A DNA stretch of 64,000 nucleotides. Origin: Amaurobius ferox. Lineage: Eukaryota; Arthropoda; Arachnida; Araneae; Amaurobiidae. The position numbers were made by a program, and so were the translations under genes. The stretch covers positions 138,097,793 to 138,161,792 of the forward strand of contig OX578134.1 of NCBI GenBank assembly GCA_951213105.1. The letters run 5' to 3'. The notes below the pieces were generated by a model, which saw only the letters and a list, made by a program, of their open reading frames with translations, did not search any database and had not been told where the DNA came from. Below, piece after piece: positions 27,149 through 42,507 of the stretch (position 1 is the first letter of the stretch; each line of letters starts with the position of its first letter).

Positions 27149-27221
27149 GTGTTTTATAGAGTTATTTATAGATATCATAAAATCTTGATCTAAATTTATT
27201 AAATTTTCTATTCCTGAGTGA

Positions 27222-27493
27222 TTAAGCTTTCTCTAATATGTATTTATTATCACCTAAATATAAAAATATATATCTTCCTTTATTGATTTTATTTATCGAT
27301 CTATTAGAAAGTTGTCCATGTTTATTCGAAAGGTAATACTCTTTTCTTCAACTTCTACATTTAACTTTACGATTGCTGTACCTGCAATCATATTTTTAAT
27401 TTTTTTCAATGATATCAGATCATATTTTCCAGGATATAAATCATCTAATACATATGTTTGACGATAACCACTCAGACTATTGAACTCTTCCAT
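27222..27493 (-). pseudogene. Frameshifted copy of the small terminal Polinton protein
   Basis: The ATG at 27493 opens a 66-residue frame that closely matches the N-terminal half of the intact 94-residue protein at 42141-42425 (shared MEEFN, DLYPGxYDLISLKKIK). The two then fall out of register near 27330-27350. The homologous continuation (NKHGQLS, INKGRYIF, ending LEKA) is present in another frame and ends at the TAA at 27222-27224. This is therefore a 1-2 base frameshift, not a natural short protein. In this copy the start site is the conserved TTTACTAATAAATGG. The function of the family is unknown; the pattern T-K-Y-G-N-T-V-I-V-K-L in the intact copy resembles a single-strand-DNA-binding OB fold, which is only an inference. 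Confidence 0.75.
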
Positions 27494-27510
27494 TTATTAG
27501 TAAACTTTTT
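27490..27510 (-). promoter_or_regulatory. Conserved Polinton gene-start motif
   Basis: On the minus strand this reads GTTTACTAATAAATGG, with the ATG of the downstream gene inside it. It is almost identical to the plus-strand motif at 42126-42144. Confidence 0.6.
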
Positions 27511-27624
27511 TTATAAATCCATCCATTCTTCATAATCTGTAAAACCTCTTTCTTCCATCTCTTTTTTAAGTTTCTCTCTGTATTCTTCATCAGACTTTGA
27601 CTCTCTAAATATTTTTTTGTTCAT
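27511..27624 (-). CDS. Small charged Polinton protein (37 residues)
   Basis: The ATG at 27624 opens a 37-residue frame ending at TAA (27511-27513), 17 bases before the next gene. It overlaps the last codons of the LRR gene in another frame. The product is highly charged (many K, E, R, D; it contains KSDEEYREKLKKEMEERG), probably one helix. Unlike its neighbours it lacks the TAAATG start context. It may be expressed by coupling to the LRR gene, or may be a chance frame. I do not recognise the family. Confidence 0.4.
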   Translation of the reverse strand: MNKKIFRESKSDEEYREKLKKEMEERGFTDYEEWMDL

Positions 27625-29125
27625 TATCAGAAATCGTAATAGAAACATCAGGATCAAATCCACTTAGTGCATTTATTATTCTAGTTACTTTCCCAACGAA
27701 ACATGTATCATCTTTTAGTTCATCTTTTAACACTTTTATAATTTCATTTTTATTCACATTTTTTAAAATTCTATTAAACACAACAACTAATATCTCTCTA
27801 AATTTAATATTATGGAATTCCTCCTCCAATAAGTTAATTTTTATATCTAATTCTTTAAAACATTCATCATATGTAATTTCTGTATTTAATAATTTTATGA
27901 TACTCTCTCTCAAAGATTTTTGAATATATGTATTATGCACATTTTGAGAGTCATTATATACATTATTATGAAATAATTGTCTTCTTAAAATCGGGGGTAA
28001 ATTTATTATATCTGTATCATAGCATACTTCATATATTCTAGGTAAAAATATTAATTCATTTAGAGATGTAATATCATTTCCGCTACAGTTTAATGTTTCT
28101 AAATTAGTTAAATTTTCTATTCCTTCAAGTGATGTTAATTTATTTCCCTCACAATATAATTCTTTTAAATTAGTTAAATTTTTTATACCTTCAAGAGATG
28201 TAATATCATTTTCGCTACAATTTAATGTTTCTAAATTCGTTAAATTTTCTATTCCTTCAAGAGATGTTAATTTATTTTTATTACAATTTTCTATTCTATC
28301 AAAGGGTGTTAATATATTTCCTCTACAATTTTCTATTCTATCAAAGGGTGTTAATATATATCCTCTACAATTTAATTCTTTCAAATTAGTTAAATTTTCT
28401 ATTCCTTCAAGGGATGTTAATTTATTTCTCTCACAATATAATTTTTTTAAATTAGTTAAATTTTTTATACCTTCAAGAGATTTTAATTTATTTTCGCTAC
28501 AATTTAATGTTTCTAAATTAGTTAAATTTTTTATACCTTCAAGAGATTTTAATTTATTTTCGCTACAATTTAATGTTTCTAAATTAGTTAAATTTTTTAT
28601 ACCTTCAAGAGATGTTATTTTATTTCCTCCACAATTTAATGTTTCTAAATTAGTTAAATTTTTTATACCTTCAAGAGATGTTAATTTATTTCCCCTACAA
28701 TATAATACTTTTAAATTAGTTAAATTTTCTATTCCTTCAAGGGATGTTAATTTATTTCCCCTACAATTTAATGTTTCTAAATTAGTTAAATTTTCTATTC
28801 CTTCAAGGGATGTTAATATATTTGAATCACAATATAATGCTTTTAAATTCGTTAAATTTTCTATTCCTTCAAGAGATTTTAATTTATTTCCCCAACAATT
28901 TAATGTTTCTAAATTTATTAAATTTTTTATTCCATCAAAAGATGTTAATATATTTAAATCACAATATAATGCTTTTAAATTCGTTAAATTTTCTATTCCT
29001 TCAAGAGATTTTAATTTATTTCCTACAGAATCAAATATAAAAATAGATTTCACTTCAGTAGGATTCTCTATATTTAAGAAAGACATAGTTTTTTTTTCCA
29101 TACCATTATTATATGTAACATCCAT
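27605..29125 (-). CDS. Leucine-rich-repeat protein with giant-virus-type C-terminal domain
   Basis: A 506-residue protein. Residues ~25-355 are tandem 22-residue leucine-rich repeats of SDS22 type (LxSLEGIxNLTNLxxLxCxxN): 13 full units and two shortened 14-residue units (ILTPFDRIENC). Such solenoids bind protein partners. Residues ~375-506 form a separate domain with the pattern QNVHN, IQKSLRESI, FVGKVTRIINALSGFDPDVSI and ISDNEQ. I recall this tail from LRR and other repeat proteins of nucleocytoplasmic large DNA viruses; a search is needed to confirm it. The start is fixed by the 19-base gene-start motif, identical to that of the gene at 41626. The gene sits next to a second giant-virus-style repeat gene. 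LRR genes are not part of the Polinton core, so this is accessory and possibly host- or virus-interacting. Confidence 0.88.
   Translation of the reverse strand: MDVTYNNGMEKKTMSFLNIENPTEVKSIFIFDSVGNKLKSLEGIENLTNLKALYCDLNILTSFDGIKNLINLETLNCWGNKLKSLEGIENLTNLKALYCDSNILTSLEGIENLTNLETLNCRGNKLTSLEGIENLTNLKVLYCRGNKLTSLEGIKNLTNLETLNCGGNKITSLEGIKNLTNLETLNCSENKLKSLEGIKNLTNLETLNCSENKLKSLEGIKNLTNLKKLYCERNKLTSLEGIENLTNLKELNCRGYILTPFDRIENCRGNILTPFDRIENCNKNKLTSLEGIENLTNLETLNCSENDITSLEGIKNLTNLKELYCEGNKLTSLEGIENLTNLETLNCSGNDITSLNELIFLPRIYEVCYDTDIINLPPILRRQLFHNNVYNDSQNVHNTYIQKSLRESIIKLLNTEITYDECFKELDIKINLLEEEFHNIKFREILVVVFNRILKNVNKNEIIKVLKDELKDDTCFVGKVTRIINALSGFDPDVSITISDNEQKNI
28050..29030 (-). repeat. 66-bp coding tandem repeat of the LRR gene
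   Basis: The LRR units are a DNA minisatellite of 66 bp. Two neighbouring units near 28475-28600 are essentially identical, so at least one duplication is very recent. A 42-bp shortened unit is itself repeated near 28290-28375. Confidence 0.85.
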
Positions 29126-29140
29126 TTATATAGAAACATT
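29122..29140 (-). promoter_or_regulatory. Conserved Polinton gene-start motif
   Basis: Reads AATGTTTCTATATAAATGG on the minus strand and includes the ATG of the LRR gene. All 19 bases are identical to 41611-41629 on the plus strand, at the other end of the element. Confidence 0.65.
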
Positions 29141-29152
29141 TTTATTAAATAT

Positions 29153-29803
29153 TTATTTATCATCTTTGTTAGTTAATTGTCTCAAAAGATAAACACTCTC
29201 TCTCAAGACTGATTTAACTTCATATATCTCTTCAAAAATTTTCTCTTGGTAAGGTTCTATTTCGTGATGACCAAACTTTTTATTTAATTCACTCATCTGT
29301 ATTGCTTGTACTTTTTTCCAATAAACATTAAAAAAGTGATCAGGTAATAGCTCAAATTTATATTTAATCAAATAACAAATATCTAATTTATGCATAAATT
29401 CTTCTATAAAATTTTCACTAAATGTTTGATATCTAGTTATATACAACCAATTTAAATCATCTTTTAATTCTCTCATGGTATCTTCTGTAAGATTTTGAAA
29501 TATTGATACTTTATATAAATCTAAATTATCAGAAAATTTTATGATAAATTCGTTACTTAAAGTTTGATATTGAGATATGTTTACCCAATCTACTTTATCT
29601 TTACATTTTTCTATAAAATCTTCTGATAATTTTTGATATCTAGAAATTTTACACCAATCATCAGGTTGAGCAAATTCTTCAATAAAAGATTCAGACAGTG
29701 TTGAATATTGTAAAACTAAATCCCAATTTACATGATCTTTAAGATTTCTAATTACATCTTCAGATAAATTATTTCTAGAAAATTCATTCCAATCAATATC
29801 CAT
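29153..29803 (-). CDS. WxxISxYQxLSExFI-repeat protein (giant-virus style)
   Basis: A 216-residue protein. Residues ~1-150 are about six tandem units of ~24 residues with the pattern (D/N)W-x-x-(I/V)-S-x-(Y/F)-Q-x-L-S-E-x-F-I-E-(E/K)-F-x-D-x-(V/L). This repeat is one I associate with large DNA viruses (NCLDV) and some phages, where copies often occur in strings; its biochemical role is not known to me. The C-terminal ~65 residues are predicted helical and charged. It starts at a TTTCTAATAAATGG motif and lies between the fibre-like gene (3 bases away) and the LRR gene. With the LRR neighbour it forms a two-gene accessory cassette at the outer end of the capsid-gene block. Interaction with a host or competing virus is speculation. 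Confidence 0.8.
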   Translation of the reverse strand: MDIDWNEFSRNNLSEDVIRNLKDHVNWDLVLQYSTLSESFIEEFAQPDDWCKISRYQKLSEDFIEKCKDKVDWVNISQYQTLSNEFIIKFSDNLDLYKVSIFQNLTEDTMRELKDDLNWLYITRYQTFSENFIEEFMHKLDICYLIKYKFELLPDHFFNVYWKKVQAIQMSELNKKFGHHEIEPYQEKIFEEIYEVKSVLRESVYLLRQLTNKDDK

Positions 29804-29806
29804 TTA

Positions 29807-30667
29807 TTAGAAAGAAATTTTTTCAATATGCATATAAGGTTTTAAAGTGTTACCATCAGATTTTATCCATAATGTGATGATATCATCACGTTTACCGTAA
29901 GCAAAACATGTTACTGTATTTGTATTAGCATTTAAAATTTCCTTACCATTGATTTCTAGAGATATCAGTGGACTTTTATCATATATATATATATTTTCTA
30001 CATATATAGCTATATATATAGATATTTTCATATACATATCTGTAGTTAATCGCATCTCTGGATTCAGTAATTTAGAACTCATCATATTGAAATTTACTTT
30101 TGTAAATTTTTCATCTATAAAAATAAGATCATCTACGGTAATCCAGATATCTCTATTATCTAAATATATTTTACTGACAGCATCATTATCATTTTCAGGT
30201 TCAGAAACATTCGTAATTATTTCATTTTTTACATCAAATTTATCATTCTGTAATATTAACGAATTTTTTTCAAAATATCTTTTATTCACAACATTTTTTT
30301 CATCTTTAGGATCTGCAACATTTCCTATTCTTTTTCCTTTTGCATCAAAAGCTTTTCCTTCTAAAGAATGTAAAGTTGTATCATTTAATTCTTTTATTCT
30401 CTTGCCTGTTTCTACAGTAAAGGATAAAAAACTCTCATCATATTTAGTTTCTATATGATCTCTCAATTCATGATGATTATTCTCTATTTTATTCAAAACA
30501 AAACTTTTAGTGGTTAAATCTAAATCATCTATAGGATTTTGACAATTTTTTAAAATTCTGTTTTCCATATCAAAATTTCCATCATTCATTAATTTAAAAC
30601 CTATACCTGGAGGTCCAATAGGTCCTTCTTTCATTTGATCATCATAAGGTGGATAATAAGCACTCAT
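29807..30667 (-). CDS. Fibre-like structural protein with a collagen-like patch
   Basis: A 286-residue protein. A collagen-like GPIGPPG lies at residues ~15-21. Three spaced copies of a phage-tail-fibre-like unit follow: an N-x-x-(D/E)-P-x-D/N element, then x-D-x-x-T/V-x-K-x-(Y/F) (NPIDDLDLTTKSF near 45, NVADPKDEKNVVNKRYF near 115, NVSEPENDNDAVSKIYL near 155). This pattern is common in trimeric attachment fibres of viruses and phages. The C-terminal ~120 residues look like a beta-rich head domain. It lies directly downstream of the major capsid gene (10-base gap), which fits a virion surface protein. The assignment as a fibre is by motif and context; no receptor-binding activity can be read from the sequence. 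Confidence 0.65.
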   Translation of the reverse strand: MSAYYPPYDDQMKEGPIGPPGIGFKLMNDGNFDMENRILKNCQNPIDDLDLTTKSFVLNKIENNHHELRDHIETKYDESFLSFTVETGKRIKELNDTTLHSLEGKAFDAKGKRIGNVADPKDEKNVVNKRYFEKNSLILQNDKFDVKNEIITNVSEPENDNDAVSKIYLDNRDIWITVDDLIFIDEKFTKVNFNMMSSKLLNPEMRLTTDMYMKISIYIAIYVENIYIYDKSPLISLEINGKEILNANTNTVTCFAYGKRDDIITLWIKSDGNTLKPYMHIEKISF

Positions 30668-30677
30668 TTATTTAATT

Positions 30678-32009
30678 TTAAGATTTTAAACTCTTAACCA
30701 TTGTTATAGTTTTATTTTTTAAATTTATAAAACATCTCTTTCTTTCTTTAAAAATAAAATAAAACTTATATTCCTTTTGACTATTCGTTATCCAATTAAA
30801 TTCAATATCTAAATTATTTAAATCGGTATAGTTTTCATGATTTGATGAGTCAAAAGGAAAAATAGGATACAGTTTACCAAAATTCTCCTTATTTATCAAA
30901 GGTCCTGTTTCTGTATTATTATCGTAAAATCCTTCACGTAAAAGAGCTTCATACACTCTACTATAATCTTTATTGGCAAAATTTGTTTTATAACGCATAA
31001 GAGGAACTTGTTTATTATTAATCATCAACCAGCATTCTGCCATATCTATATCAAATATCATATTATTTTTTTCATAATTACTATCTCTTTCAACATATTG
31101 AGGAATAACATAGACACTTAAAACTTCATCTGACGCTGTAGTTGCTGTCACAGATCCACTGTTGCTTCTATAAGGGCCTACCATCTTAAATCTATATCGA
31201 TCCCAATTTACCTCTATATCTTTATTAGATAGATATGATTCCAGAAACAAGCTTTCTGCAGAATTTTTTAATTCTATATAAGGTAAATGTAAGGTTAAAC
31301 CTTCAACTACTACCTTATAATTTTCGTTTCTTATATTAGTATATATCATATTTTTATTTTCATTTCTTTGAATTTCTATTTTCACTTCAAAACCTGAAAT
31401 TATCTTTTCATATTCTCTAAAGAAATCGATTATATCTTTTAAAGGTGTCCATATTTTAATGACATTGCTATCTTTCGTTAGTTCCCATCTCTTTACGAAT
31501 CCTTCGTTACAATCTTTATTCATTTTCAAATTATTAAAAAATTCAGTTATTTTAGTAGTATCTTCTAAAGTACCATCATATTTAAACTCATTACGGTCAG
31601 CTGAATCAGATGTATCTAGATAAAAAAATTCATTTTGAGCTTGTGATGTTACATAATGAGGAGTATAATGAATTAATCTTAAAACGTGATTCATGATTGA
31701 AAAATTTGACTGTGTATTTGATTCAATTTCAGTATCTCCTATATGTACTTTTAAAGTTTTGATAAAACCTCCGCCATTTACCAGACTCACATTTTCGTTT
31801 CCAATGGATGATTTATCATTTTTTGTAATTTTTAATTTTAGTTCAAGATATCCTCTAGAATATAAAATTTTTGCTTTAGTATCATTAATATGAAAAACAT
31901 AGGTAGCATTCTCATCTGAACTATGTTCTTTTGGATGAATATCTCTTAATTCATAACTTTTAATGTGATCATTATAATAATAACGAGTATCACTTAAATC
32001 ATAAATCAT
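30678..32009 (-). CDS. MCP: Major capsid protein (double jelly-roll type)
   Basis: A 443-residue protein that I take to be the Polinton hexon-like major capsid protein, which forms trimers tiling an icosahedral shell. Support: the length fits Polinton MCPs; beta-strand-rich composition; a C-terminal LYPIFPFD motif followed by a polar segment, a pattern I know from Polinton/adintovirus MCPs; and position among penton, protease and fibre-like genes. An N-terminal segment (YELRDIHPKEHSS, TYVFHINDTKAK) fits the strand that docks the neighbouring subunit. Its ATG at 32009 lies in CCTAAATAAATGA and immediately follows the stop codon of the 43-residue gene. The frame is intact. Family assignment rests on pattern recognition, not an alignment. 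Confidence 0.85.
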   Translation of the reverse strand: MIYDLSDTRYYYNDHIKSYELRDIHPKEHSSDENATYVFHINDTKAKILYSRGYLELKLKITKNDKSSIGNENVSLVNGGGFIKTLKVHIGDTEIESNTQSNFSIMNHVLRLIHYTPHYVTSQAQNEFFYLDTSDSADRNEFKYDGTLEDTTKITEFFNNLKMNKDCNEGFVKRWELTKDSNVIKIWTPLKDIIDFFREYEKIISGFEVKIEIQRNENKNMIYTNIRNENYKVVVEGLTLHLPYIELKNSAESLFLESYLSNKDIEVNWDRYRFKMVGPYRSNSGSVTATTASDEVLSVYVIPQYVERDSNYEKNNMIFDIDMAECWLMINNKQVPLMRYKTNFANKDYSRVYEALLREGFYDNNTETGPLINKENFGKLYPIFPFDSSNHENYTDLNNLDIEFNWITNSQKEYKFYFIFKERKRCFINLKNKTITMVKSLKS

Positions 32010-32141
32010 TTATTTAGGAAGAATTTTTAAACCACCTCCTTTCTTTTTCATAGAAAATATTTCATTTAATATATTCTTAGGTTTCAATAAAACCTTTAAA
32101 AATCCTAGTATTTTTTTACTTTTTCTATATAATCTATTCAT
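32010..32141 (-). CDS. Small basic Polinton protein (43 residues)
   Basis: The ATG at 32141, in CTTAAATAAATGA, opens a 43-residue frame whose TAA directly abuts the ATG of the major capsid gene with no spacer. The protein is strongly basic (RLYRKSKKILGFLK at the start, KKKGGGLKILPK at the end) with a short amphipathic middle. Small basic proteins of this kind occur in the capsid-gene block of adenovirus-like elements as core or cement proteins. The precise stop/start junctions on both sides and the conserved start context make it a real gene rather than a gap. The family is not identified. Confidence 0.7.
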   Translation of the reverse strand: MNRLYRKSKKILGFLKVLLKPKNILNEIFSMKKKGGGLKILPK

Positions 32142-32145
32142 TTAT

Positions 32146-32838
32146 TTAAGAAGAAATAAAATTAAATTCTACAGCTCCTTTATTTAAATCTATTAATTCA
32201 CCTTTTTGATTAGTAATCCTCATTTTTATTCTTTCAACAGGATCCACTTTAACAGGAAAAAATATCCAATTATTAAATTCTTTTGAAATTATACTACCTG
32301 GAGGGTTTTTATTAGTGAAAGAATATATAACTTCTGAATTATATTGATTTATTAAAGATCCTTTTACAACATCACAGTGAATATAAATATTATCATTTCC
32401 ATTAGATATATCAGCAATATGTTCACCTTCAATCTCTATTTCTTCATCATAACTTCCATATGTCAGTTTTAAAAAGCCTATAATTTTATGAAAGTTACTT
32501 TTTGTAAAATCAATTACCCAATCTTTTTTCAGTTTAATAGATATTCTTTGTCTTGCTTCAATAATACCAAATTTGACAGGTGGATCTTCACCGAATATTT
32601 TCATCATATACTCATTTAATCCTCTTATAGTATAATTACCATTTGATATAGTAATTGTTATATCTGTGCCTAATGTATACAATCTAAATATGTTATTTCC
32701 ATAATTCTTACTTATATTAAACCAGGAAACTTCCATAGAGAATGAGTGTAAAGCTAATTTTTTTATTTTAAGAGGTGTAATAAAATTTACAGTAAATTCC
32801 TCTGATCTCTCATGACCTTCAGATTTTAATATTATCAT
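32146..32838 (-). CDS. Minor capsid (penton) protein, single jelly-roll type
   Basis: A 230-residue, beta-rich protein that matches the pattern of the Polinton penton/minor capsid protein, which fills the five-fold vertices. Visible signatures: SWFNISKNYGNN near residues 39-50, GNYTIRGLNEYM near 67-78, the run IADISNGNDNIYIHCDVVKGS near 141-161 (given in part), NPPGSII near 180, and a C-terminal TNQKGELIDLNKG. It overlaps the end of the pVI/protease gene by 4 bases (ATG at 32838; the upstream gene ends at 32835) and lies 4 bases from the 43-residue gene, so the block is tightly packed. The frame is intact. The assignment is by family pattern and neighbours. Confidence 0.85.
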   Translation of the reverse strand: MIILKSEGHERSEEFTVNFITPLKIKKLALHSFSMEVSWFNISKNYGNNIFRLYTLGTDITITISNGNYTIRGLNEYMMKIFGEDPPVKFGIIEARQRISIKLKKDWVIDFTKSNFHKIIGFLKLTYGSYDEEIEIEGEHIADISNGNDNIYIHCDVVKGSLINQYNSEVIYSFTNKNPPGSIISKEFNNWIFFPVKVDPVERIKMRITNQKGELIDLNKGAVEFNFISS

Positions 32839-33656
32839 TTATACATAACAAAATTTTCATTATAGTCACTAGGTTTTTGTGTAGGAAATGATTTGAGAAC
32901 ATTTTTAGGTGATATACCTTTATTCCTTTCTCTTATATATTTCATACAAAATATACCACATTTCACAGATGAAGGTTTCTGTAAAAAACTATCATTATAA
33001 CCTATTTTTTTATTGGATGTAACAAGAAATGATTTAATATTTTTAGGAATATAGTCCTTCTTCATATTGTCATATTCACCAAACGGATCAAAATATTCCA
33101 CATATTTATATTTAGGATCATTATAATAACAAACCCAATGAGTCTCGGGGCCTGTTGATACATCTAAATTAATGATTCCATTTTCAAATTTTCCTATTGT
33201 TTTAGGTAATAAATCGGAGGTAAACACACCTCTAAATCCTTTTTCATTTTTCATATTTTCTTTAATCATTTTGTCGCTAATTCCCACTGTTGATATATTC
33301 CCTTTCCAAGTTTTTTTTTTCCCAGATCCTTTCATCTTTTTTTGTATAGCTGAACTAGCTAATCCAGATAAAGTACCTGATGCTAATGCTGGAACTGCAA
33401 TTTTAGCAGCGGTTATTAAAGAGGGTATAAGTGCCGCTAGAAATGGTAAAAATCCTCCATTTTTATCTAATTGAGTTTTACTGATTGTAATTCTTTTTTT
33501 ATCATTAATATGATTAATTTGAGTTTTAGTTAAATACATCTCATGATTAGGAGTTTTAGATTTATCTATTTGTAATGTTACTTCTACATTATTTTTAAAA
33601 GCTGATTTAAGTTTATTTTTCTGACCTTCACTCAAATAAACTTTATATTTTATCAT
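32835..33656 (-). CDS. Fused pVI-like protein and adenain-like maturation protease
   Basis: One intact 273-residue frame with two parts. Residues 1-105 resemble the pVI-like minor capsid protein of Polintons: a LSEGQKNKLKSAF start, LTKTQINHI, SKTQLDKNGGFLP, then a hydrophobic amphipathic stretch (70-104). Residues ~130-273 are a C48/adenain-type cysteine protease with catalytic His173 (THWVCY), Asp190 (YFDPFG), Gln226 and Cys233 (CGIFCM). Adenain cuts capsid precursors after (M/I/L)xGx before G, and exactly such a site, M108-K-G-S-G112, lies in the basic linker between the two parts. Self-release of the two halves is therefore plausible. In most Polintons I know these are separate genes. The start lies in GTTAATAAATGA. 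Confidence 0.9.
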   Translation of the reverse strand: MIKYKVYLSEGQKNKLKSAFKNNVEVTLQIDKSKTPNHEMYLTKTQINHINDKKRITISKTQLDKNGGFLPFLAALIPSLITAAKIAVPALASGTLSGLASSAIQKKMKGSGKKKTWKGNISTVGISDKMIKENMKNEKGFRGVFTSDLLPKTIGKFENGIINLDVSTGPETHWVCYYNDPKYKYVEYFDPFGEYDNMKKDYIPKNIKSFLVTSNKKIGYNDSFLQKPSSVKCGIFCMKYIRERNKGISPKNVLKSFPTQKPSDYNENFVMYK

Positions 33657-33659
33657 TTA

Positions 33660-34418
33660 TTAACAGAGAAATTGTTTATGATATCGTTGTACATCATTAT
33701 AAGTCATTTCTTTATTTTTTAATAACATATCTAACAATAAAGTTACTTGATTATACAATTTCTTTGATTTACTTCCGTTACATATTTTTTCTGTTAAATT
33801 TGATAATACATTCAATCCTTTACCTACCTTCATTTCTTTACTACTTCGAATCATATTTAATCTATGCATATAATTTTGCAACATATTTTCTTTATTTTTA
33901 ATTTCTTTTATATCATTCTTTTTCTGGTTTAATTCCTCCTCTGAAAAATTTTTAGCCCTAGAAATTGTACTTTTTAAGTTGCCTCTTTTCTTAGATAATC
34001 CTTCTTTTAACTGTTTAGCTCTTCCATACATCTCCTCTAATTTTTCTTGATCATTTAAAAATACTGACGGTCTGTATAATTTTTCCTCTTTTAAATATTT
34101 TAAATTTAAATTTTGATCGATATCATAAGTATAAGATACTAATTCTTTCACAGCTTCAATAGGCTCTTCTATAGATGGAAATGTAATATTTTCTACAACA
34201 TTTTGAATACTTTTCACAACTTCTTTATTTGATTTTTCATATTTTTCAATTTCTTGAGTGACTGGTTTATGAAATTCCTCTAAGGTTTTTTGAATACCTA
34301 TTTTTTCTTTTAGTTGATCTTCATTATTCTTTCTTATTTCTTTTTCAATTTTTACTATTTTAATTGAATCTTTTATTTGCTTTAAAAACTTGTGTTTCCG
34401 TTCTTTTTCTAAGTTCAT
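33660..34418 (-). CDS. Coiled-coil Polinton protein of unknown function
   Basis: A 252-residue, lysine/glutamate-rich and mostly helical protein. Coiled-coil-like heptads occupy residues ~1-75 and ~130-185. The C-terminal ~60 residues are more conserved-looking, with GKGLNVLSNL, a GSKSKKL element and LLLDMLLKNKEMT followed by tyrosine/histidine positions. I recall a similar C-terminal pattern in unnamed Polinton proteins encoded next to the capsid genes. It is the first gene of the leftward block. Its ATG (34418) faces the ATPase start (34475) across a 56-base divergent intergenic region, so both blocks probably share one promoter region. No enzyme motif is visible; a scaffold or virion role is inferred from position. 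Confidence 0.7.
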   Translation of the reverse strand: MNLEKERKHKFLKQIKDSIKIVKIEKEIRKNNEDQLKEKIGIQKTLEEFHKPVTQEIEKYEKSNKEVVKSIQNVVENITFPSIEEPIEAVKELVSYTYDIDQNLNLKYLKEEKLYRPSVFLNDQEKLEEMYGRAKQLKEGLSKKRGNLKSTISRAKNFSEEELNQKKNDIKEIKNKENMLQNYMHRLNMIRSSKEMKVGKGLNVLSNLTEKICNGSKSKKLYNQVTLLLDMLLKNKEMTYNDVQRYHKQFLC

Positions 34419-34474: not shown

Positions 34475-35194
34475 ATGATAAAAATTAAAGATTACACGGA
34501 ACCAGAAGAATTACCTGATCCTAAACAACATCCTTTGTTACCTAAACATCCATTTAGATTACTTATAGTAGGATCTTCAGGTTCAGGTAAAACAAATTTA
34601 CTGTTAAATTTGATTTAGGATTTATTATTTTTTGATACATTATATATATGTGCAAAAGATTTATACGAACCTAAATATTCTAAATTACAAGAAATATATA
34701 CATTGTTTGAAGATATAGAAAGAGAAGATATTTTGAAATGTAAGAATATAAAGAATAAGAAAAGATTATTAAAATTTTATGATAAATTAAAAAAAAAAGT
34801 ATTATTTTCTTCAGATCATAATTTTATTACTGTAGATGATTTAAATCCTACATTAAAGAATTTAGTTATTTTTGATGATTGTGTGATTGAGAAAGATCAA
34901 AAAAACATCAAAGAATTATTTATCAGAGGTAGAAAGAAAAACGCATCCTTTATTTATTTAACTCAGTCATATTATTTAACACCTATCAATATAAGAAGGA
35001 ACTGTAATTACGATATATTTTTCACTCTACAACCAAAAGAAAATCAACAGATTATAAGAGAGATAGATGGTTTATTAAGTACTGAAGAATTCAAACAAAT
35101 GTATAATAAAAGTGTTCAAGAAAAATATGATTTTTTTATGTTAGATTTAGTGAATTCAGAAATGAGATACAGGAAAAAATTTAATCCTATATAA
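34475..35194 (+). pseudogene. Genome-packaging ATPase, broken by one nonsense codon
   Basis: A 239-codon frame starting at the ATG at 34475 encodes the FtsK/HerA-type ATPase that drives DNA into Polinton-type capsids. Walker A is GSSGSGKT at residues 33-40 and Walker B is LVIFDD near 129-134 (codons at ~34860). An arginine-containing FIRGRKKNASF, then LTQSYY, follows as in packaging ATPases. Codon 48 is TAG (34616-34618), just after Walker A, with the same frame continuing unbroken to the stop at 35194. A second in-frame ATG at 34703 cannot rescue the activity because Walker A would be lost. The downstream stop is fused to the next start (TATATAAATGG). Apart from this one base the gene looks intact, so the mutation is recent, unless it is a sequencing error or is read through. 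Confidence 0.85.
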
Positions 35195-35584
35195 ATGGAT
35201 GTATATTTAGAAAAAAGATTATATGTTTACAGAAAGAGTAGAAATTTGTATCAAAAGATAAGTATTTCATTATCAGTAAGTAAGGTTATTCTAAGTGGAA
35301 CGGGTTTATCAGCAATAGCCTTTCTACCGCTTGCATTTTTAAGTTTATCAGTTGGTATAGTAGAAGCCATAGATCTCGCATTAAAAATAGCAGAAAGGAA
35401 AGAAGAATATAGACATTGTTATAATTTTTATAAAGAACTCATTAATTCGTTTAAAGCTAAGGATATGACAGAAGAAGAAATTTATATGTGTGAAAAGGAT
35501 TTCATAAAAAGTTTAAAATTTAATCCAGTTGAAAAATACGTAAAACAAATGCAATTGAATGGATATAAATTTCTAAATAAATAA
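35195..35584 (+). CDS. Small membrane protein of the Polinton
   Basis: A 129-residue protein whose ATG directly follows the ATPase stop codon (TATATAAATGG). Residues ~28-60 are hydrophobic and glycine-broken (ILSGTGLSAIAFLPLAFLSL in part), consistent with one or two membrane segments in hairpin form. They are flanked by a basic N terminus and a charged helical C terminus (IAERKEEYRHCYNFYKELI). Proteins with this layout are frequent in Polintons between the ATPase and later genes, but I know no established function. A membrane-active virion protein would fit the phospholipase gene that follows directly. The frame is intact and the stop abuts the next ATG. Confidence 0.7.
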   Translation: MDVYLEKRLYVYRKSRNLYQKISISLSVSKVILSGTGLSAIAFLPLAFLSLSVGIVEAIDLALKIAERKEEYRHCYNFYKELINSFKAKDMTEEEIYMCEKDFIKSLKFNPVEKYVKQMQLNGYKFLNK

Positions 35585-36061
35585 ATGGTTTGTAAAAAGA
35601 AAGGTGGTGATATTGTTGGATGGATACAAGATAAAGTAAATCTTCCAGAAATGCATTTACCAGGATATCAATATTGTGGTCCAAATACAAAATTAGAAAA
35701 AAGATTAAAAAGAGGTGATCCTGGAATAAATAGAGTTGATAAGTTATGTAAAACACATGATATTGAATACAATAAAACAAAAGATACAAAACAGAGACAT
35801 GTTGCTGATCAAAAATTAATAGATGATTTAAATGCTATACAAGATCCAACATTTCAAGAAAGATTAGCTAGAGGAATTATTAAACCTATTATTAAAGTTA
35901 AAAAAACTTTTGGATTAGGTCTTTCTATATATTGTGTCAAGTGTAAAGATAAAACCCCAACTAAAAATTATCATAAAACTACTTCTAAAAATAATAAACC
36001 TGTTGGTAAAGGTATCTGTACTATTTGTGGAAGTAAAAAGAATACTTTTTTAGGAATTTAA
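35585..36061 (+). CDS. Phospholipase A2-like domain fused to a DUF5679-type zinc ribbon
   Basis: A 158-residue protein. Residues ~25-90 match the parvovirus-VP1-like phospholipase A2 fold: a calcium-loop YCGPNT, then GDPGINRVDKLC, the catalytic His-Asp pair in CKTHDIEY, and a following AD-x-x-L (ADQKLIDDL). This enzyme class hydrolyses phospholipids and in virions serves membrane passage. Residues ~115-158 carry two cysteine pairs (YCVKCKDKT and CTICGSKKNTFLG) around a basic linker, the pattern I know as DUF5679 and which adenovirus-like elements carry in small core proteins. The N-terminal KKKGGD may be basic core-like sequence. The gene abuts its upstream neighbour (AATAAATGG). The integrase reading frame begins immediately after, without its own ATG. 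All catalytic positions are present. Confidence 0.85.
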   Translation: MVCKKKGGDIVGWIQDKVNLPEMHLPGYQYCGPNTKLEKRLKRGDPGINRVDKLCKTHDIEYNKTKDTKQRHVADQKLIDDLNAIQDPTFQERLARGIIKPIIKVKKTFGLGLSIYCVKCKDKTPTKNYHKTTSKNNKPVGKGICTICGSKKNTFLGI

Positions 36062-37059
36062 AAGAGGTCTATTATAATCCAGAAACAGGTTATTGTGGAA
36101 TTAATGAATTGAAAAGAAAAACAGGGTTACCTAATGTTGAAGAATTTTTACATGAACAAGATGTATATATTAGATATAAACCTGTCATTCGTAAATTTAA
36201 AAGAAGAAGAGTTTATGTTCCAAACAGTAATAATCAATTTGACGCTGATTTGTTATTTATAAAAAATTATAGTAAATATAATGATGGAACTAATTATTTG
36301 TTAACATTTATAGATGCTTTTAATAAATATGCTTGGGCTTTTCCTATAAAAAGAAAAACATCTGAAGAAGTAGTACAAGGTTTTAAACAAGTTTTTAAAG
36401 AAAGAATACCAAAATTCATTTTGACAGATGAAGGTACTGAATTTACAGGAAAACAGACACAAAAATTATTTAAAGATAATAATATACATTGGTTTACAAC
36501 TAAAAAAAAAGAAATAAAATCTGCAATAGCTGAGAGATTTAATAGAAGTATAAGAGAAAAAATTATAAAATATATGCATGCTAACAATACTAAAAGATAT
36601 ATTGATGTATTACCTAAATTACTTAAAAATTATAACAATTCATATCATAGATCAATAAAAATGACACCTGTTGAGGCTAGAGAAAATGAATCTCAAGTTT
36701 ATAAAAATTTATATACTAAAAAGATCATGAAAAAACCTAAATTTAAGATAGGGGATAGTGTTAGAATATCTACAATTAAGAAAACATTCAGGAAAGTAGA
36801 TGATTCTACATTCACTGAAGAGATTTTTATAGTTTCTGAAGTATTGAAAACAGATCCAATTACTTATCGATTAAAAGATTTAAACAGTAAAGAAATTGAA
36901 GGAACTTTTTATGAAAATGAAATGGTAAAATATAATAAAAAAGATGATGTATATAAAATTGAAAAAATCATAAAAAAGAAAGGAAATAAGTATTTTGTTA
37001 AATGGCTAGGATATCCAGATGAATTTAATAGTTGGACATCTGAATTAGTTCATATATAA
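36062..37059 (+). pseudogene. Polinton integrase (DDE, with chromodomain); start codon not found
   Basis: A retroviral-type integrase that joins the element ends to target DNA. The catalytic triad is Asp in FDADL (~36241-36247), Asp in LTDEGTEF (36427) and Glu in AIAERFNR (36532), with 34 residues between the last two, as in Polintons. A C-terminal chromodomain (~36940-37059; YFVKWLGYPDEFNSW) may guide insertion to modified histones. The conserved N-terminal pattern (VYYNPETGYCG, then LPNVEEFL) is readable from the phospholipase stop codon onward, but no ATG occurs in this frame. The TAAATG junction used by the other genes reads TTTAAAAGAGG here. Either the start codon was lost, or a non-AUG codon such as the TTG at 36109 is used. 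TTG would omit conserved residues, so loss is more likely. The rest is intact. Confidence 0.88.
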
Positions 37060-37398
37060 ATGAATTTAGATAATAAGATGAAATTAATCTATGATTCAGA
37101 AGAAGAAGAATATTTTTATGTTATCGACTACAAAAGTTTAAAACAAAGATATAATAGTAGAGTTTGTTATTTTAATCGATTAAGAAGGAGATATAATATT
37201 TCTCAAGAAGTTGAGGATATGTTTTTAAAATTTTTAGATTTTATGTATTATGAGAAATCTATTAACTATTACTATTTTATGAAAAAGATTTGTGATATTT
37301 TTAATATTGAAAATAATATAAAGGTTCAAAGTGTTAAAAAGAAATATGAAAAAATATGGAATGATTTCTTACAAAGTATTTCAAGAAATGTTTCTTAA
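37060..37398 (+). CDS. Small tyrosine-rich Polinton protein (112 residues)
   Basis: The ATG directly follows the integrase stop codon (CATATATAAATGA). The product is acidic at the start (DSEEEEYFYV), then basic and aromatic, with many Tyr and Phe, and is predicted to be helical. It ends in SRNVS, and the neighbouring zinc-finger protein ends in TKNVS, because both coding ends lie in the repeated gene-start motif AATGTTTC. I do not recognise the family. Its place between integrase and polymerase suggests a replication or regulatory role, but nothing in the sequence proves this. Confidence 0.65.
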   Translation: MNLDNKMKLIYDSEEEEYFYVIDYKSLKQRYNSRVCYFNRLRRRYNISQEVEDMFLKFLDFMYYEKSINYYYFMKKICDIFNIENNIKVQSVKKKYEKIWNDFLQSISRNVS

Positions 37399-37405
37399 TA
37401 AATGG
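37387..37405 (+). promoter_or_regulatory. Conserved Polinton gene-start motif
   Basis: AATGTTTCTTAATAAATGG spans the end of one gene and the ATG (37402) of the next. It differs by one or two bases from the motifs at 37639 and 41611. Confidence 0.65.
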
Positions 37406-37650
37406 AGCTTACAAAAAAGTGTATACACTGTTTGACTATGAAATCGGTAAATGAGTTTTACATATATCATAGAAATGAAAAAATTTATTTCCAAAGTCAT
37501 TGCAAATGTTGTGATTCCATAATCAAATATAAAAAATTTAAATGTGAATGTGGCATGCAATATACCTATACACACAAAAAGAGACATTTAAAAAGTATTT
37601 ATCATAGTAAGCATCTTCCAGGAAAAAGTATTACAAAAAATGTTTCCTAA
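37402..37650 (+). CDS. Small zinc-finger protein (82 residues)
   Basis: Zinc-binding pairs are visible: CIHC near residues 7-10, CKCC near 34-37, CEC near 49-51, and histidines in HKKRHLKSIYH near 58-68. They fit a CxxC...CxxC ribbon followed by a C2H2-like finger (KCECGMQYTYTHKKRH). Similar fingers occur in the N-terminal part of the polymerase encoded next. It may therefore be a split-off or duplicated finger module that binds nucleic acid. The gene is flanked on both sides by the 19-base start motif and lies three bases from each neighbour. Confidence 0.65.
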   Translation: MELTKKCIHCLTMKSVNEFYIYHRNEKIYFQSHCKCCDSIIKYKKFKCECGMQYTYTHKKRHLKSIYHSKHLPGKSITKNVS

Positions 37651-37657
37651 TAAATGG
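37639..37657 (+). promoter_or_regulatory. Conserved Polinton gene-start motif
   Basis: AATGTTTCCTAATAAATGG includes the start codon of the polymerase gene at 37654. Confidence 0.65.
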
Positions 37658-40600
37658 AGCTCAACTTAAAGTCAAAGACTATTAATGAACTTAGAAAAGT
37701 AGTAAAATTATTGAATATTAAACAACCTAAAGGTTGTAAGAAGGTTGATTTAATTAAATTATTAACTAAATATATCAGAAAAACAGGTGAATATAAACCT
37801 GTTTTAGTAGATTTATTAAATTTAGATTTGTCAGCATACTTGGAAAAAAAGAAAAAAATATTTATTGATAAACCTAAAAAACGTAAAAAAATTAAAAAGA
37901 TTTTTGATTCTTTTAGTTTAAGATTTGATAAAAATGATTTTAAATCTGTCTTTCCTGAAGAAAATGTATTTACAGTAGAAGAAAATCTTGAAAAGTTATT
38001 TACAGAAGATAAAAAATGTCGTATATGTGGTAAATATTATGAAGCTGAAGAAGAACATATAAAGAAAGACTTAATGATTAAAAGATCAAAACAAAAAAGA
38101 AAATGTATTATTTGCGGCATATATTATAAACATTTAGAAAATCACATATCAAGTCGAAAACATAAAAAAGCATTAGATGAAGGTAATGTAGAAATTAAGG
38201 AATATGAAACTGCTTATAAATCTAGATTAAGATCGTACAGAATTAATAATTGTAATAATATTAAAATCCCTCTAGAATTTTTAGAAGAGAAAAGAAAGGT
38301 TGTAATAGAAAAAATAAAGCAAATTATGAAAGAATTTAATGGAATAAAGGTAAATTTTAAATTGTTTTGTTTGTATAAATTGAATGAAGAAATTCAAGAA
38401 TTTACATTCAAAACTGAGAATCAAATTATATTAAAATCTAATGATTTACATACTTTTTATGATTATGTTATTGACAACTTAATAAATGAATCTGATGATT
38501 TTATATCAAAAGGATCTGGTTGGAGTCTTGAAGAAATTAAATTTTTAGAATTGAGAATAAATAAGTATCAACCCTTGAGAGGATCAAGTTATATTGATTT
38601 ACCTGAAAATATTAAATCTAAACAAGCTATAATAAATGTAAAAAATAAAGATAATAAATGTTTTATGTGGTCTATATTATCAGCAATTCATCCTGTAAAA
38701 AAAAATCCTCAAAGAGTGTCAAAATATGAACAATATAAAGATGAATTAAATTTTAAAGGTATTGATTTTCCTGTTTCATTAGACAATATTAAGAAATTTG
38801 AAAAACTAAATAATATATCTGTAAATGTTTATAGTTATGATGGTTCAATTTATCCACTTAGAATAACTAACAATAAATTAGAAAAACATGTAAACTTGTT
38901 TTATATGAAAGATCATTATTGTTGGATTAAAAATATGAATAGTTTGATCAGATCACAAATTAATAATAATCAAATATTTTTATGTGATAGATGTTTAAAT
39001 CATTTTTATTCTGAGGAAAGGTTAAAGATACATGAGGAATACTGTAAAGATGCTGTCACAATTAATATGCTTAAAAAAGATGAAGTTATTCAATTTAAAA
39101 ATTATGAAAGAAAAATGAGAGTACCATATACTATATATGCTGATTTTGAATCTCTCTTACCTAAAATTGATACATGTGAGCAAGATCAAACTAAATCATA
39201 TACTGTGAAATATCAAAAACATGTAGCAGATGCATTTTGTTATTATATCAAATATGAAAAGGAATACTTTAAACCTCCTGTTGTTTATAGAGGACCAGAT
39301 ACAATCAAAAAGTTTGTATCTATGTTAAAAGAGGATACTCTTAAAATTGAAAAAATGATAGAAGACAAAACTAAAAAATATGAAAGTATCAAATCAATGA
39401 TAGAGTTCGATGAAAATCATTATAAAAGAACTAATATTTGTCATATATGTGAAAATCAAATCTTAAATGATGAAAAAGTAATTGATCATTGTCATATAAC
39501 TGGAAAATATAGGGGTCCTGCTCATAATATTTGTAATTTAAATTATCAAATTCCAAAATTTATTCCAGTAAAAATTCATAATTTAACAGGTTATGATTCT
39601 CATTTGTTTATAAAAGAACTTGGATTTGATCAATCAAAAATAGATGTTATACCTAATACCGAAGAAAAATATATATCTTTCAGCAAAACAATAGGAGGTA
39701 TGAAATTGAGATTTATTGATTCATTTAAATTTATGTCTTGCAGTTTAGATAATTTATCAAAAAACTTGAGACCAGAGAAAGAAATAAATAGATATCCTCC
39801 AAAAATACGAAAAATGAAATATATTAAATACTTAAAATTGAAATTTAGAGAGACATCATTACATTTTCCTGATGATAAATTAGATCTCATTACAAGAAAA
39901 GGTGTATATCCTTATGATTATATGGATTCTAGAGATAAATACAAAGAAACAGAATTACCTTCAAAAGATAAATTTTATAATAAATTGAATGAATGTAATA
40001 TAACTGATGAAGAATATAAACATGCTCAACGTGTTTGGAAAGAATTTAATATAAAAAATTTAGGTGAATATACAGATTTATATGTTAAAACAGATGTATT
40101 TGAAAATTTTAGAGATGTTTGTTTAAAAACTTATAAATTAGATCCAGATTGGTATTTTACTGCTCCTGGTTTATCTTGGGATGCTATGTTAAAAATAACA
40201 AATGTTAAATTAGATTTATTAAATGATTATGATATGATTCTCATGATAGAAAAAGGTTTAAGAGGAGGTGTTTCACAATGTTGTAATAGATATGGAAAAG
40301 CTAATAATAAATATATGAAAAATTATGATAATAGTAAAGAATCCAATTATTTAATGTATTTAGATGCTAATAATTTATATGGATGGGCTATGAGTCAATA
40401 TTTACCATATGGAGAATTTAAATGGTGTAATGAAATAAATTATGTTAAACGTGAATTATATAACAATAAAATAAAAGATGATTCAGAGATTGGATATATA
40501 TTTGAAATTAGTTTAAGATATCCAAAAGAGTTACATGATTATCATTCAGATTTACCATTGTGTCCTGAAAATAGAATTCCTGAAAATTCGAAACAAGGTA

Positions 40601-41625
40601 AGTTATTAACAACTTTATACGATAAAGAGAAATATGTAGTTCATTATAGAAGTTTAAAACAATATTTGAAAATGGGTTTAAAGGCTGTAAGAGTACATAG
40701 AGTATTACAATTTAAACAATCGAATTGGTTAAAAAAATATATAGATTTAAACACTGAAATGAGAAAGAAAGCTGCTAATGATTTTGAGAAAGATTTTTAT
40801 AAATTAATGAATAATTCTATATTTGGAAAAACTATGGAAAATATAAGAAAACGAATCGATGTAAGATTATGTTGTAATTATGATCAAGTTAAAAAATTAA
40901 TTGCTAAACCTAATTTCAAATGTAGAACTATTTTTGATGAAAATTTGGTAGCTGTTCACATGAAAAAAACAAAACTATATTTTAATAAACCGATTTATGT
41001 TGGAATGAGTATATTAGATTTATCTAAACATTTAATGTATGATTTTCATTATAATATTATGAAACCGAGATATAAAGATAATATTAAGTTATTATATATG
41101 GATACAGATAGTTTTATATATGATATTAAAACAGATGACTTTTATGAAGATATGAAGTCTATGATTGATTATTTCGATACATCTGATTATCAAGTAAATA
41201 ATCTGTATAATATGCCTAGATGTAATAAAAAAGTAATAGGTAAAATGAAAGATGAAAATAACGGTGTGATTATGGAAGAATTTGTAGGTTTAAGAAGTAA
41301 AATGTATTCAATAAGATTAGAAAAGCAGAGTGTTGAAGAATACAATAATAATAATGAAGACCATAAAAATTTTGAGATTAAGAAGTCTAAAGGTACTAAG
41401 ACTAGTACCGTTAAAAACAGAATATCATTTGAGGATTATAAAGACTGTTTATTAAATAAAAAAGATCAATATAGAACACAGAATTTAATTAGAAGTAAGA
41501 AACATGAATTGTATTCAATTCAAGTGAACAAGATAGCTTTATCAGCAAAAGATGATAAAAGATTTATATTAGAAGATGGTATGAATACTAGAGCTTTAGG
41601 ACACTATAAAAATGTTTCTATATAA
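37654..41625 (+). CDS. polB: Protein-primed family B DNA polymerase with SAP, zinc-finger, OTU-like and HNH modules
   Basis: A 1323-residue replicase. Residues ~1-45 form a SAP-like DNA-binding helix pair (TINELRKVVKLLNI). C2H2 fingers begin near Cys122 and Cys151. An OTU-like cysteine-protease module has Cys336 (NKCFMWS) and His421 (DHYCWIK). A finger starts near Cys444 (FLCDRCLNHF). The 3'-5' exonuclease has Exo I YADFES (Asp497, Glu499), Exo II TGYDS (Asp648) and Exo III YVKTD (Asp814). An endonuclease-VII-like HNH/zinc insertion lies at ~596-630 (CHIC, DHCHITG). Polymerase motifs are A LDANNLYG (Asp904), B KLMNNSIFG (Lys1050 to Gly1058) and C MDTDSF (Asp1150, Asp1152). All catalytic residues are present and the frame is intact. 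Protein priming is inferred from the family. The stop abuts the next ATG. Confidence 0.97.
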   Translation: MELNLKSKTINELRKVVKLLNIKQPKGCKKVDLIKLLTKYIRKTGEYKPVLVDLLNLDLSAYLEKKKKIFIDKPKKRKKIKKIFDSFSLRFDKNDFKSVFPEENVFTVEENLEKLFTEDKKCRICGKYYEAEEEHIKKDLMIKRSKQKRKCIICGIYYKHLENHISSRKHKKALDEGNVEIKEYETAYKSRLRSYRINNCNNIKIPLEFLEEKRKVVIEKIKQIMKEFNGIKVNFKLFCLYKLNEEIQEFTFKTENQIILKSNDLHTFYDYVIDNLINESDDFISKGSGWSLEEIKFLELRINKYQPLRGSSYIDLPENIKSKQAIINVKNKDNKCFMWSILSAIHPVKKNPQRVSKYEQYKDELNFKGIDFPVSLDNIKKFEKLNNISVNVYSYDGSIYPLRITNNKLEKHVNLFYMKDHYCWIKNMNSLIRSQINNNQIFLCDRCLNHFYSEERLKIHEEYCKDAVTINMLKKDEVIQFKNYERKMRVPYTIYADFESLLPKIDTCEQDQTKSYTVKYQKHVADAFCYYIKYEKEYFKPPVVYRGPDTIKKFVSMLKEDTLKIEKMIEDKTKKYESIKSMIEFDENHYKRTNICHICENQILNDEKVIDHCHITGKYRGPAHNICNLNYQIPKFIPVKIHNLTGYDSHLFIKELGFDQSKIDVIPNTEEKYISFSKTIGGMKLRFIDSFKFMSCSLDNLSKNLRPEKEINRYPPKIRKMKYIKYLKLKFRETSLHFPDDKLDLITRKGVYPYDYMDSRDKYKETELPSKDKFYNKLNECNITDEEYKHAQRVWKEFNIKNLGEYTDLYVKTDVFENFRDVCLKTYKLDPDWYFTAPGLSWDAMLKITNVKLDLLNDYDMILMIEKGLRGGVSQCCNRYGKANNKYMKNYDNSKESNYLMYLDANNLYGWAMSQYLPYGEFKWCNEINYVKRELYNNKIKDDSEIGYIFEISLRYPKELHDYHSDLPLCPENRIPENSKQGKLLTTLYDKEKYVVHYRSLKQYLKMGLKAVRVHRVLQFKQSNWLKKYIDLNTEMRKKAANDFEKDFYKLMNNSIFGKTMENIRKRIDVRLCCNYDQVKKLIAKPNFKCRTIFDENLVAVHMKKTKLYFNKPIYVGMSILDLSKHLMYDFHYNIMKPRYKDNIKLLYMDTDSFIYDIKTDDFYEDMKSMIDYFDTSDYQVNNLYNMPRCNKKVIGKMKDENNGVIMEEFVGLRSKMYSIRLEKQSVEEYNNNNEDHKNFEIKKSKGTKTSTVKNRISFEDYKDCLLNKKDQYRTQNLIRSKKHELYSIQVNKIALSAKDDKRFILEDGMNTRALGHYKNVSI

Positions 41626-41629
41626 ATGG
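41611..41629 (+). promoter_or_regulatory. Conserved Polinton gene-start motif
   Basis: AATGTTTCTATATAAATGG includes the polymerase stop codon and the next ATG. It is identical over all 19 bases to the motif of the LRR gene on the other strand (29122-29140). Confidence 0.65.
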
Positions 41630-41859
41630 ATGAGGGCTTAGGTGATATTCGAGCTTTAAATTTTACAAATTCTGAAGAAATTTACTATATGACTTATCTT
41701 TGTAAAGAATTGTATGATATAAAATATGATAAAAAACTATTATCAGAAAGTTTTCAAAGGTTGACTGAATTAATTGAAAAAGAAGAAAATGAAGATATTA
41801 AATTGAAGGGATTGGGAGTTTTATATGTTATTTCAAAGAATTTATTCTATTGGTCATGA
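41626..41859 (+). CDS. Small acidic Polinton protein (77 residues)
   Basis: A helical, acidic frame (e.g. ESFQRLTELIEKEENED) with an aromatic C terminus (NLFYWS). Its ATG is fused to the stop of the polymerase gene within the conserved start motif. No family is recognised. It is the first of the small genes at the right end of the element, a position that often holds fast-evolving accessory genes. Confidence 0.6.
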   Translation: MDEGLGDIRALNFTNSEEIYYMTYLCKELYDIKYDKKLLSESFQRLTELIEKEENEDIKLKGLGVLYVISKNLFYWS

Positions 41860-41882
41860 ATTTATAAAAACTAATAAATAGA

Positions 41883-41999
41883 ATGTTTGAATTAAATGAT
41901 TTATATCCTAGGATTGATATAACTAAATATTGTTGTGATACCTTAAAGTTAGTTGAATCAATAAAATATAAAGGTATATTTAAGTATGAGAAAGCTTAA
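41883..41999 (+). pseudogene. Shrunken third copy of the small terminal protein
   Basis: A 38-residue frame beginning ELNDLYP and ending FKYEKA. It matches the start (KLNDLYPG) and end (FKY...LEKA) of the intact 94-residue protein at 42141 but lacks most of the middle and the original N terminus. The upstream sequence ACTAATAAATAGAATG is a degraded version of the ACTAATAAATGGAAGAG start of the intact copy. It is most likely a deletion derivative, though a short product could still be made from the ATG at 41883. Confidence 0.6.
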
Positions 42000-42070
42000 T
42001 CAATATATGATTTTTTTTTAATATATTAGAGTGTTTATAATAACTATTTTATTAATATCTCTATAATTCA

Positions 42071-42088
42071 GGGGGATAACCATCCCCC
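42071..42088. terminator. GC hairpin downstream of the rightward gene block
   Basis: GGGGGAT-AACC-ATCCCCC is a perfect 7-bp stem in otherwise AT-rich DNA, between the small genes. It resembles the GC hairpins in the terminal repeats. A termination or processing role is conjecture. Confidence 0.35.
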
Positions 42089-42125
42089 CCTATATCATAT
42101 AATGTTTAGAAAATATTTATAAAAA

Positions 42126-42144
42126 AATGTTTACTAATAAATGG
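42126..42144 (+). promoter_or_regulatory. Conserved Polinton gene-start motif
   Basis: AATGTTTACTAATAAATGG includes the ATG at 42141. There is no coding sequence directly upstream here, so the motif is conserved independently of any overlapping gene end. Confidence 0.7.
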
Positions 42145-42425: not shown

Positions 42426-42507
42426 TAATTATTAATATACTCATCATAGCTGGTTTGATAAAAGCTTCCTAGATTATGAAGAACTTTACATACCTTTTCA
42501 TATAAAA

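Follow-up and report, generated by a model that had tools for sequence, protein, structure and literature searches.

In poxviruses, a near-leaderless TAAAT(G/A) lying on the start codon is the form of late promoters (PMC5294985), and late and intermediate promoters combine it with a T-containing core about 5-7 bases upstream and a leader of about zero length (PMC5294985, PMC3061580). Vaccinia late genes follow the patterns TAAATG and T-N9-TAAATG (PMC11423596, Table 1), and TAAATG has been described for an entomopoxvirus gene (PMC3061580). In poxviruses and yeast virus-like elements, transcripts begin at TAAAT/TAAAN and acquire 5' poly(A) by slippage (PMC6211774, section 8). Among the latter, the linear cytoplasmic pGKL elements are small selfish DNAs with per-gene promoters (PMC6211774). 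African swine fever virus has the A/T-rich late initiator TA(+1)TA, short leaders and slippage (PMC7163114), and the mavirus/EMALE virophages, which are Polinton relatives, carry a common promoter motif before their genes, TCTA in mavirus, matching the late promoter of CroV (PMC8547959). The portions of the literature covered by our search describe such motifs for protist virophages and giant viruses, poxviruses and yeast elements, and no promoter for an animal Polinton, whose gene expression thus appears to be an open question. Here, we have analysed a 64,000-nucleotide stretch (the window) of contig OX578134.1 (positions 138,097,793 to 138,161,792) of the spider Amaurobius ferox, in which positions 26454-43814 are a Polinton bounded by terminal inverted repeats (TIRs). 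Nearly all its genes start with a shared motif for which a start-site function, as a promoter of the poxvirus late type, is well supported by the sequence comparisons.

The genes lie in two divergent arrays, leftward from 34418 and rightward from 34475. TAA directly joined to ATG was found at 16 of 18 candidate gene starts on both strands (the integrase, which has no ATG start, was left out of the 18), compared with 23 of the 392 other sense-strand ATGs of the two arrays (Fisher P ~2e-16), 9/184 antisense ATGs and 93/1746 ATGs outside the element. The original prediction had counted about 14 TAAATG starts, and the hexamer was indeed present at every place it had named. Its "at least six" genes sharing a longer motif proved too few, as 16 starts share it: the motif is the rule among the genes of this family (hereafter family A). 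The two exceptions were the ATPase (ATG at 34475, context TAAATTATG) and a 105-amino-acid (aa) open reading frame (ORF) starting at 42825 on the minus strand, which has a TATATAAA box instead. When TAAA beginning anywhere at -9 to -3 was counted, 17/18 starts had it, the 105-aa ORF being the sole miss, versus 98/393 other sense ATGs.

Aligned on the ATG, the 16 starts were A-rich at -19 to -15 and T-rich at -14 to -7, and continued as (A/T)ATAAATG(G/A), with A at -4 and G or A at +4 in all of them. Column information beyond TAAATG exceeded the 99.9% null at -16, -13, -10, -7, -4 and +4. A Kozak context was rejected as the explanation: the favoured base at -3 is a purine, and T stood there in 16/16. 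The TAAAT(G/A) initiator that marks a poxvirus-type late promoter was present at the starts, and the vaccinia-like spacing T-N9-TAAATG occurred at 14 of the 16, compared with 2 of the 23 TAAATG sites in these arrays that are not gene starts (P ~8e-7). The shared motif was real, but not in the wording first proposed for it: the consensus AATGTTTCTAATAAATGG had no exact occurrence, and with up to 3 mismatches it matched only 27490-, 29800- and 38117- (3 vs 0.72 expected by chance). It misses real sites because these differ by one-base insertions too, as among the variants GTTTACTAATAAATGG, GTTTCTATATAAATGG, GTTTCTTAATAAATGG and GTTTCCTAATAAATGG. The identity that had been noted between two distant sites held and was longer than claimed, 27 bases (29125- and 41626+) instead of 19. 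The motifs of 27493- and 42141+, the two MEEFN genes, are not independent sites, since these genes are paralogues (82% over 170 bp). The sites below are based on reading of the site sequences, the ATG-aligned 16-site profile, domain scans and a test of the gap from the preceding stop.

27491-27513, minus strand: start motif, 66-aa ORF (left MEEFN paralogue)
29123-29145, minus strand: start motif, leucine-rich-repeat (LRR) protein; 27 bases the same as at 41626+
29801-29823, minus strand: start motif, 216-aa protein
30665-30687, minus strand: start motif, putative fibre-like protein
32007-32029, minus strand: start motif, major capsid protein (MCP; double jelly-roll, DJR, PF21738)
32139-32161, minus strand: start motif, small basic protein; its TAA is distinct from the stop of the gene before it (gap 4)
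32836-32858, minus strand: start motif, 230-aa protein, putatively in the minor-capsid position; the start at 32838 overlaps the preceding gene as ATGA, so that its TAA is not that gene's stop
33654-33676, minus strand: start motif, cysteine protease
34416-34438, minus strand: start motif, 252-aa protein; divergent, no upstream gene end
34469-34477, plus strand: TAAAT two bases 5' of the ATPase ATG; same in 13/13 aligned copies (14 fetched)
35175-35197, plus strand: start motif, 129-aa protein
35565-35587, plus strand: start motif, phospholipase A2 (PLA2) + DUF5679 protein
37040-37062, plus strand: start motif, 112-aa protein
37382-37404, plus strand: start motif, 82-aa Cys-rich protein
37634-37656, plus strand: start motif, protein-primed DNA polymerase B (PolB)
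41606-41628, plus strand: start motif, 77-aa protein; copies have TTTCTATATAAATGG or TTTACTAATAAATGG
42121-42143, plus strand: start motif, 94-aa protein (right MEEFN); no gene end close upstream, as originally noted
42860-42869, minus strand: TATATAAAGG box, 35-44 bases upstream of the 105-aa ORF (42508-42825, minus strand)

The last of these boxes resembles a host RNA polymerase II (Pol II) promoter and may be a host-type early promoter of an early gene. The 105-aa ORF was not among the ORF clusters (at least 60 aa) printed for the scanned pieces of other copies.

We have then compared the starts among family A copies and with sister families B and C, and a family D locus, of the same genome, which were obtained by a Pfam DJR search (126 of 1487 candidates scored). 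Pairwise divergence within family A was 0.14-0.23 beyond -20, 0.060 at -20 to -16, lowest at -15 to -1 (0.018-0.047), and 0.059-0.141 from the ninth gene base onward; the alignment was ungapped from the ATG, so that indels inflate the flanks. TAAATG stood in 241 of 244 contexts, the window included and some counted twice (overlapping pieces, the MEEFN pair); the three misses came from a penton copy and from a MEEFN copy that reads TATATG and was counted twice. At the right end, where copies have diverged and show a modular make-up, the 25 bases before the right MEEFN gene were identical in the window and the six pieces listing it (L032, L034, L035, L038, L040 and L041), and further pieces had different flanks with the same last bases, L060 reading TATATG. 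The swap before the 77-aa gene is multi-base and changes the PolB end, with the motif retained; among the 120 PolB homologues listed, many of them partial, none had a C-terminus ending in the motif-encoded NVS. A 73-aa gene, absent from the window's ORFs of at least 50 aa, had the motif in 10/10 listed copies.

The MCPs of families C and B are 54% and 47% identical to that of the window, respectively. TAAA was found at -7 to -3 in 11/11 starts of each family, compared with TAAA at -9 to -3 in 50/316 (C) and 33/358 (B) other ATGs, and a degraded family D locus had it at 2/2 starts. In these counts the family C penton start was placed by homology (L090:1985, not the first ATG at 1919), and the VLTF3-like genes described below are outside them. 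Absence from sister elements, which had been named as grounds for abandoning the promoter proposal, was thus not observed within the genome. TAAATG proper occurred at 6/11 (C) and 5/11 (B) starts, the remainder being TAAAGATG, TAAAATG and similar, and an A lay directly 5' of TAAA in 11/11 and 10/11. As the sister starts keep ATAAA while TAAATG itself varies, the conserved part is the ATAAA initiator; its fusion with the start codon is the family A form. Beyond the genome, a distant Polinton contig found by PolB profile in IMG/VR (L031, PolB 40%) had TAAATG at 1/12 ORF starts, with TATATA stretches upstream of several starts instead, and therefore the motif is lineage-specific. Scans of IMG/VR with the MCP and with an MCP profile found no relative.

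Both sister families exceeded the Pfam cut-off of 25 bits for Pox_VLTF3, the late transcription factor of poxviruses (PF04947), with 33.1 in L093 and 28.6 in L092, in proteins of 163 and 180 aa that match only the C-terminal half of the profile. When 10 of the 14 homologues found were scanned, 3 were over the cut-off (P0143, P0147 and P0149), 4 below it and 3 without a VLTF3 match. In the host genome all 150 scored matches (of 599 candidates) were over the cut-off, compared with 0/14 control genomes, and a VLTF3 match lay 6.1-6.65 kb away on the same strand at 41 of the 79 MCP matches ranked below 47 B-type rows. The structure model of a homologue had its best matches among VLTF3 proteins of nucleocytoplasmic large DNA viruses (NCLDV), and it also matched chains of Pol II/III initiation complexes, which we take to be TFIIB or Brf1. 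The factor may be a VLTF3/TFIIB-like protein that combines a zinc ribbon with a cyclin fold. Searching solved structures with the VLTF3-like sequence gave no relative (best E 0.087, unrelated molecules), and the four VLTF3-like proteins searched against NCBIfam had no match. The sister proteins resemble the VLTF3 of Nucleocytoviricota (NCVOG0262) in profile score and model, and differ in residing in Polintons, in being shorter and in covering only half of the profile. The consulted parts of a 2024 study state that VLTF3 homologues are undetectable outside Nucleocytoviricota (PMC11253617), and a few eukaryotic homologues are mentioned in PMC8715426; the present matches weaken the value of VLTF3 as a diagnostic of Nucleocytoviricota.

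No recognisable VLTF3 was found in family A. Between integrase and PolB, where the sister families carry the VLTF3-like gene on the opposite strand, it has the 112-aa gene. That the 112-aa and 82-aa proteins are a split VLTF3 was so far unsupported: BLAST aligned 24% over 80 aa (E 0.24), hhalign gave P 0.086 and 0.12, the first unchanged with 12 copies, and for a low-confidence single-sequence model (pLDDT 59.3) the 50 BFVD matches listed, of 60, included none named VLTF3. In family C, a 72-aa ORF with TAAATG (L092:715-933, plus strand) overlaps the start of the VLTF3-like ORF.

The AATAAA within the motif could serve the preceding gene as its poly(A) signal, brought close to the ATG by tight packing. 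Indeed, family A genes nearly abut, and among 33 starts examined out of the 40 in families A, B and C (all but 42825-, three of L092 and three of L093), 31 had AATAAA or TATAAA beginning at -5 to -9 of the next ATG; the two others, the ATPase starts 34475+ and L093:4171-, have TAAAT or TAAATG. The gap from the preceding same-strand stop, however, ranged from -4 to 111 bases overall and from 1 to 89 in the sister families, where the hexamer still adjoined the following ATG. Moreover, TAAA is present at the divergent ATPase/252-aa spacer starts of families A, B and C, the motif standing at 34418-, L090:420, L091:313 and L092:4195 without any upstream gene end. The 16 window sites comprise 10 AATAAA, 6 TATAAA and no ATTAAA, a common variant of the signal, and the A/T box keeps a fixed distance from the ATG. 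The same figures bear on stop-start coupling, by which the TAA would end the upstream ORF and be retained because it permits termination-reinitiation on a polycistronic RNA. The TAA before ATG is the preceding stop in 5/16 starts (32009- among them) and a second TAA after that stop in 4 more, but in the other 7 it is not that stop, these starts being divergent or isolated, separated from the stop by 4-111 bases or, at 32838-, overlapping as ATGA; the sister families use other spacings of TAAA and ATG, and coupling does not predict an A/T box. Because the gap varies while the hexamer is fixed to the next ATG, both fail as a general cause, and we regard the poly(A) signal, which the original prediction had entertained, as very improbable and coupling as extremely so. 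Ordinary host TATA promoters, or chance in sense strands of 76% A+T, would account for the TATA-box look of TATATAAATG. Pol II starts RNA at a set spacing from its TATA box, so one lying on the ATG would put the RNA start inside the gene, and TAAA was far rarer at non-start ATGs in all three families; we give this explanation next to no credence.

Transcription by a helper is a version of the promoter reading itself: the element would be transcribed by the cytoplasmic RNA polymerase of a poxvirus- or asfar-like virus infecting the same cell, whose promoters its own would match, as mavirus is by that of CroV. This had been the original proposal. The virophage precedent and the near-leaderless poxvirus form cited above would fit it, as would the absence of a recognised RNA polymerase among the ORFs scanned and the initiators of family A, which lacks a recognisable VLTF3. 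On the other side, sister elements would hardly need a VLTF3 of their own if a helper supplied everything, and an element-encoded VLTF3/TFIIB-like factor offers a helper-free route. No NCLDV capsid or Pox_TAP match (PF03355, presumably VLTF2) was found in the host genome; both searches were without a positive control and were empty in the 14 control genomes too, and are hence uninformative. We consider a helper virus possible but unlikely. Thus, what stands of the earlier virus-type promoter proposal is a start function of the poxvirus late type, whereas transcription by a co-infecting large DNA virus is a hypothetical further step.

A start-site promoter of that type is well supported because the motif holds its place relative to the following ATG and not relative to the stop before it, because divergent starts without an upstream gene end carry it, and because it is kept in diverged sister families that encode a VLTF3-like late factor. 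It is probably a poxvirus/NCLDV-type late core promoter, served in the sister families by the element-encoded VLTF3/TFIIB-like factor. What is observed is the position of the motif, its enrichment and conservation, its independence from where the preceding gene ends, and the existence of VLTF3-like genes; the transcriptional steps would be as follows. An upstream A/T-rich box (AAAAATGTTTC-like, -20 to -7) and an ATAAA(T) initiator on or just 5' of the start codon would drive transcription, with VLTF3 reading the motif and RNA starting at the AAA. Since the promoter precedes almost every gene, each gene would form a separate transcription unit whose leader is close to zero in length, although polymerase slippage on AAA may lengthen it, vaccinia-style. 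The TFIIB-like factor could recruit host Pol II, or the polymerase could be that of a helper virus, and family A may borrow a VLTF3 factor.

The full vaccinia group I consensus (WWWTWWWN5WTAAATG) was found at only 2/16 starts (0/23 controls), and the T ten bases before TAAA was present in 7/11 family C starts but in 4/11 of family B, in which the position is not kept. The motif also differs from poxvirus promoters in belonging to a 17-kb integrated Polinton, in its A-box plus TGTTTC form, and in the sister families' placing of TAAAG or TAAAA a few bases before the ATG. The TAAAN initiators of poxviruses and yeast elements also cover the sister starts. By contrast, pGKL has its own RNA polymerase and an ATNTGA box 20-40 bases before the ATG (PMC6211774), a box not searched for here. 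The African swine fever virus initiator is TATA and that of the Polinton TAAA. The mavirus/EMALE motif is likewise different: TCTA was near 4/16 starts, compared with 8.5% of random 28-base sense windows, and did not qualify as the motif of this element.

These data suggest that an animal Polinton expresses its genes by a programme of poxvirus style, linking Polintons to the expression system of poxviruses and other Nucleocytoviricota; the initiator and the VLTF3-like factor make the expression of animal Polintons testable. The motif also offers a means of locating the starts of Polinton genes from sequence, and of asking whether one family is a parasite of another. It is a tentative and rather doubtful further step that these Polintons run a complete poxvirus-style late programme, with family A a satellite on the VLTF3 of a sister or helper after loss or replacement of its own. 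If true, family A would be an animal counterpart of virophages, and VLTF3 would predate, or have crossed, the Nucleocytoviricota/Preplasmiviricota divide.

The element carries the hallmarks of the Polinton/Maverick class: TIRs, rve integrase, PolB, DJR capsid protein, protease and packaging ATPase. The rve, chromo, DJR-like and C48 domains were over the profile cut-off, an A32-like ATPase piece was slightly below it, and PolB was assigned via homologues. The repeats are located as follows.

26454-26938, plus strand: left TIR, in part repeated internally; arms pair with 43334-43814 at 96-100%
43334-43814, minus strand: right TIR, pairing with 26454-26938

The leftward array encodes, in order, the 252-aa protein, protease, 230-aa protein, small basic protein, DJR capsid protein, fibre-like protein, 216-aa protein, LRR protein and 66-aa protein; the rightward array encodes the ATPase, 129-aa protein, PLA2, integrase, 112-aa protein, 82-aa protein, PolB, 77-aa protein and 94-aa protein. 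Spider proteins are the nearest named matches, joined in the case of PolB by those of a scorpion and insects. The host genome is eukaryotic (3.56 Gb), and all 95 MCP copies scored in it (of 3155 candidates) were 98-100% identical, 92 of them stop-free, which points to a recent burst of the window family.

In the window copy, the ATPase frame (34475-35194) is broken by an in-frame stop and the integrase ORF (36062-37059) has no ATG start. The distance from MCP to PolB end was about 330-350 bp greater in the two copies compared (C3 and C5), and the window copy may lack a piece. The LRR protein (27605-29125, minus strand; 506 aa) consists of strongly repeated units and varies in length among copies, and at 35585-36061 (plus strand) a phospholipase A2-like domain (PF08398) is joined to DUF5679. 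Families B and C are identical in the 34 bases before the 216-aa gene (L090:5075-5115 and L091:5239-5279) and share the first residues of its product, far closer than the rest, which suggests recombination between them. The spacer between the ATPase and 252-aa genes (34430-34475) contains a unit of about 21 bp (TTTTTACTGCAGCAAATTTTA type), of which copy L016 has one more.

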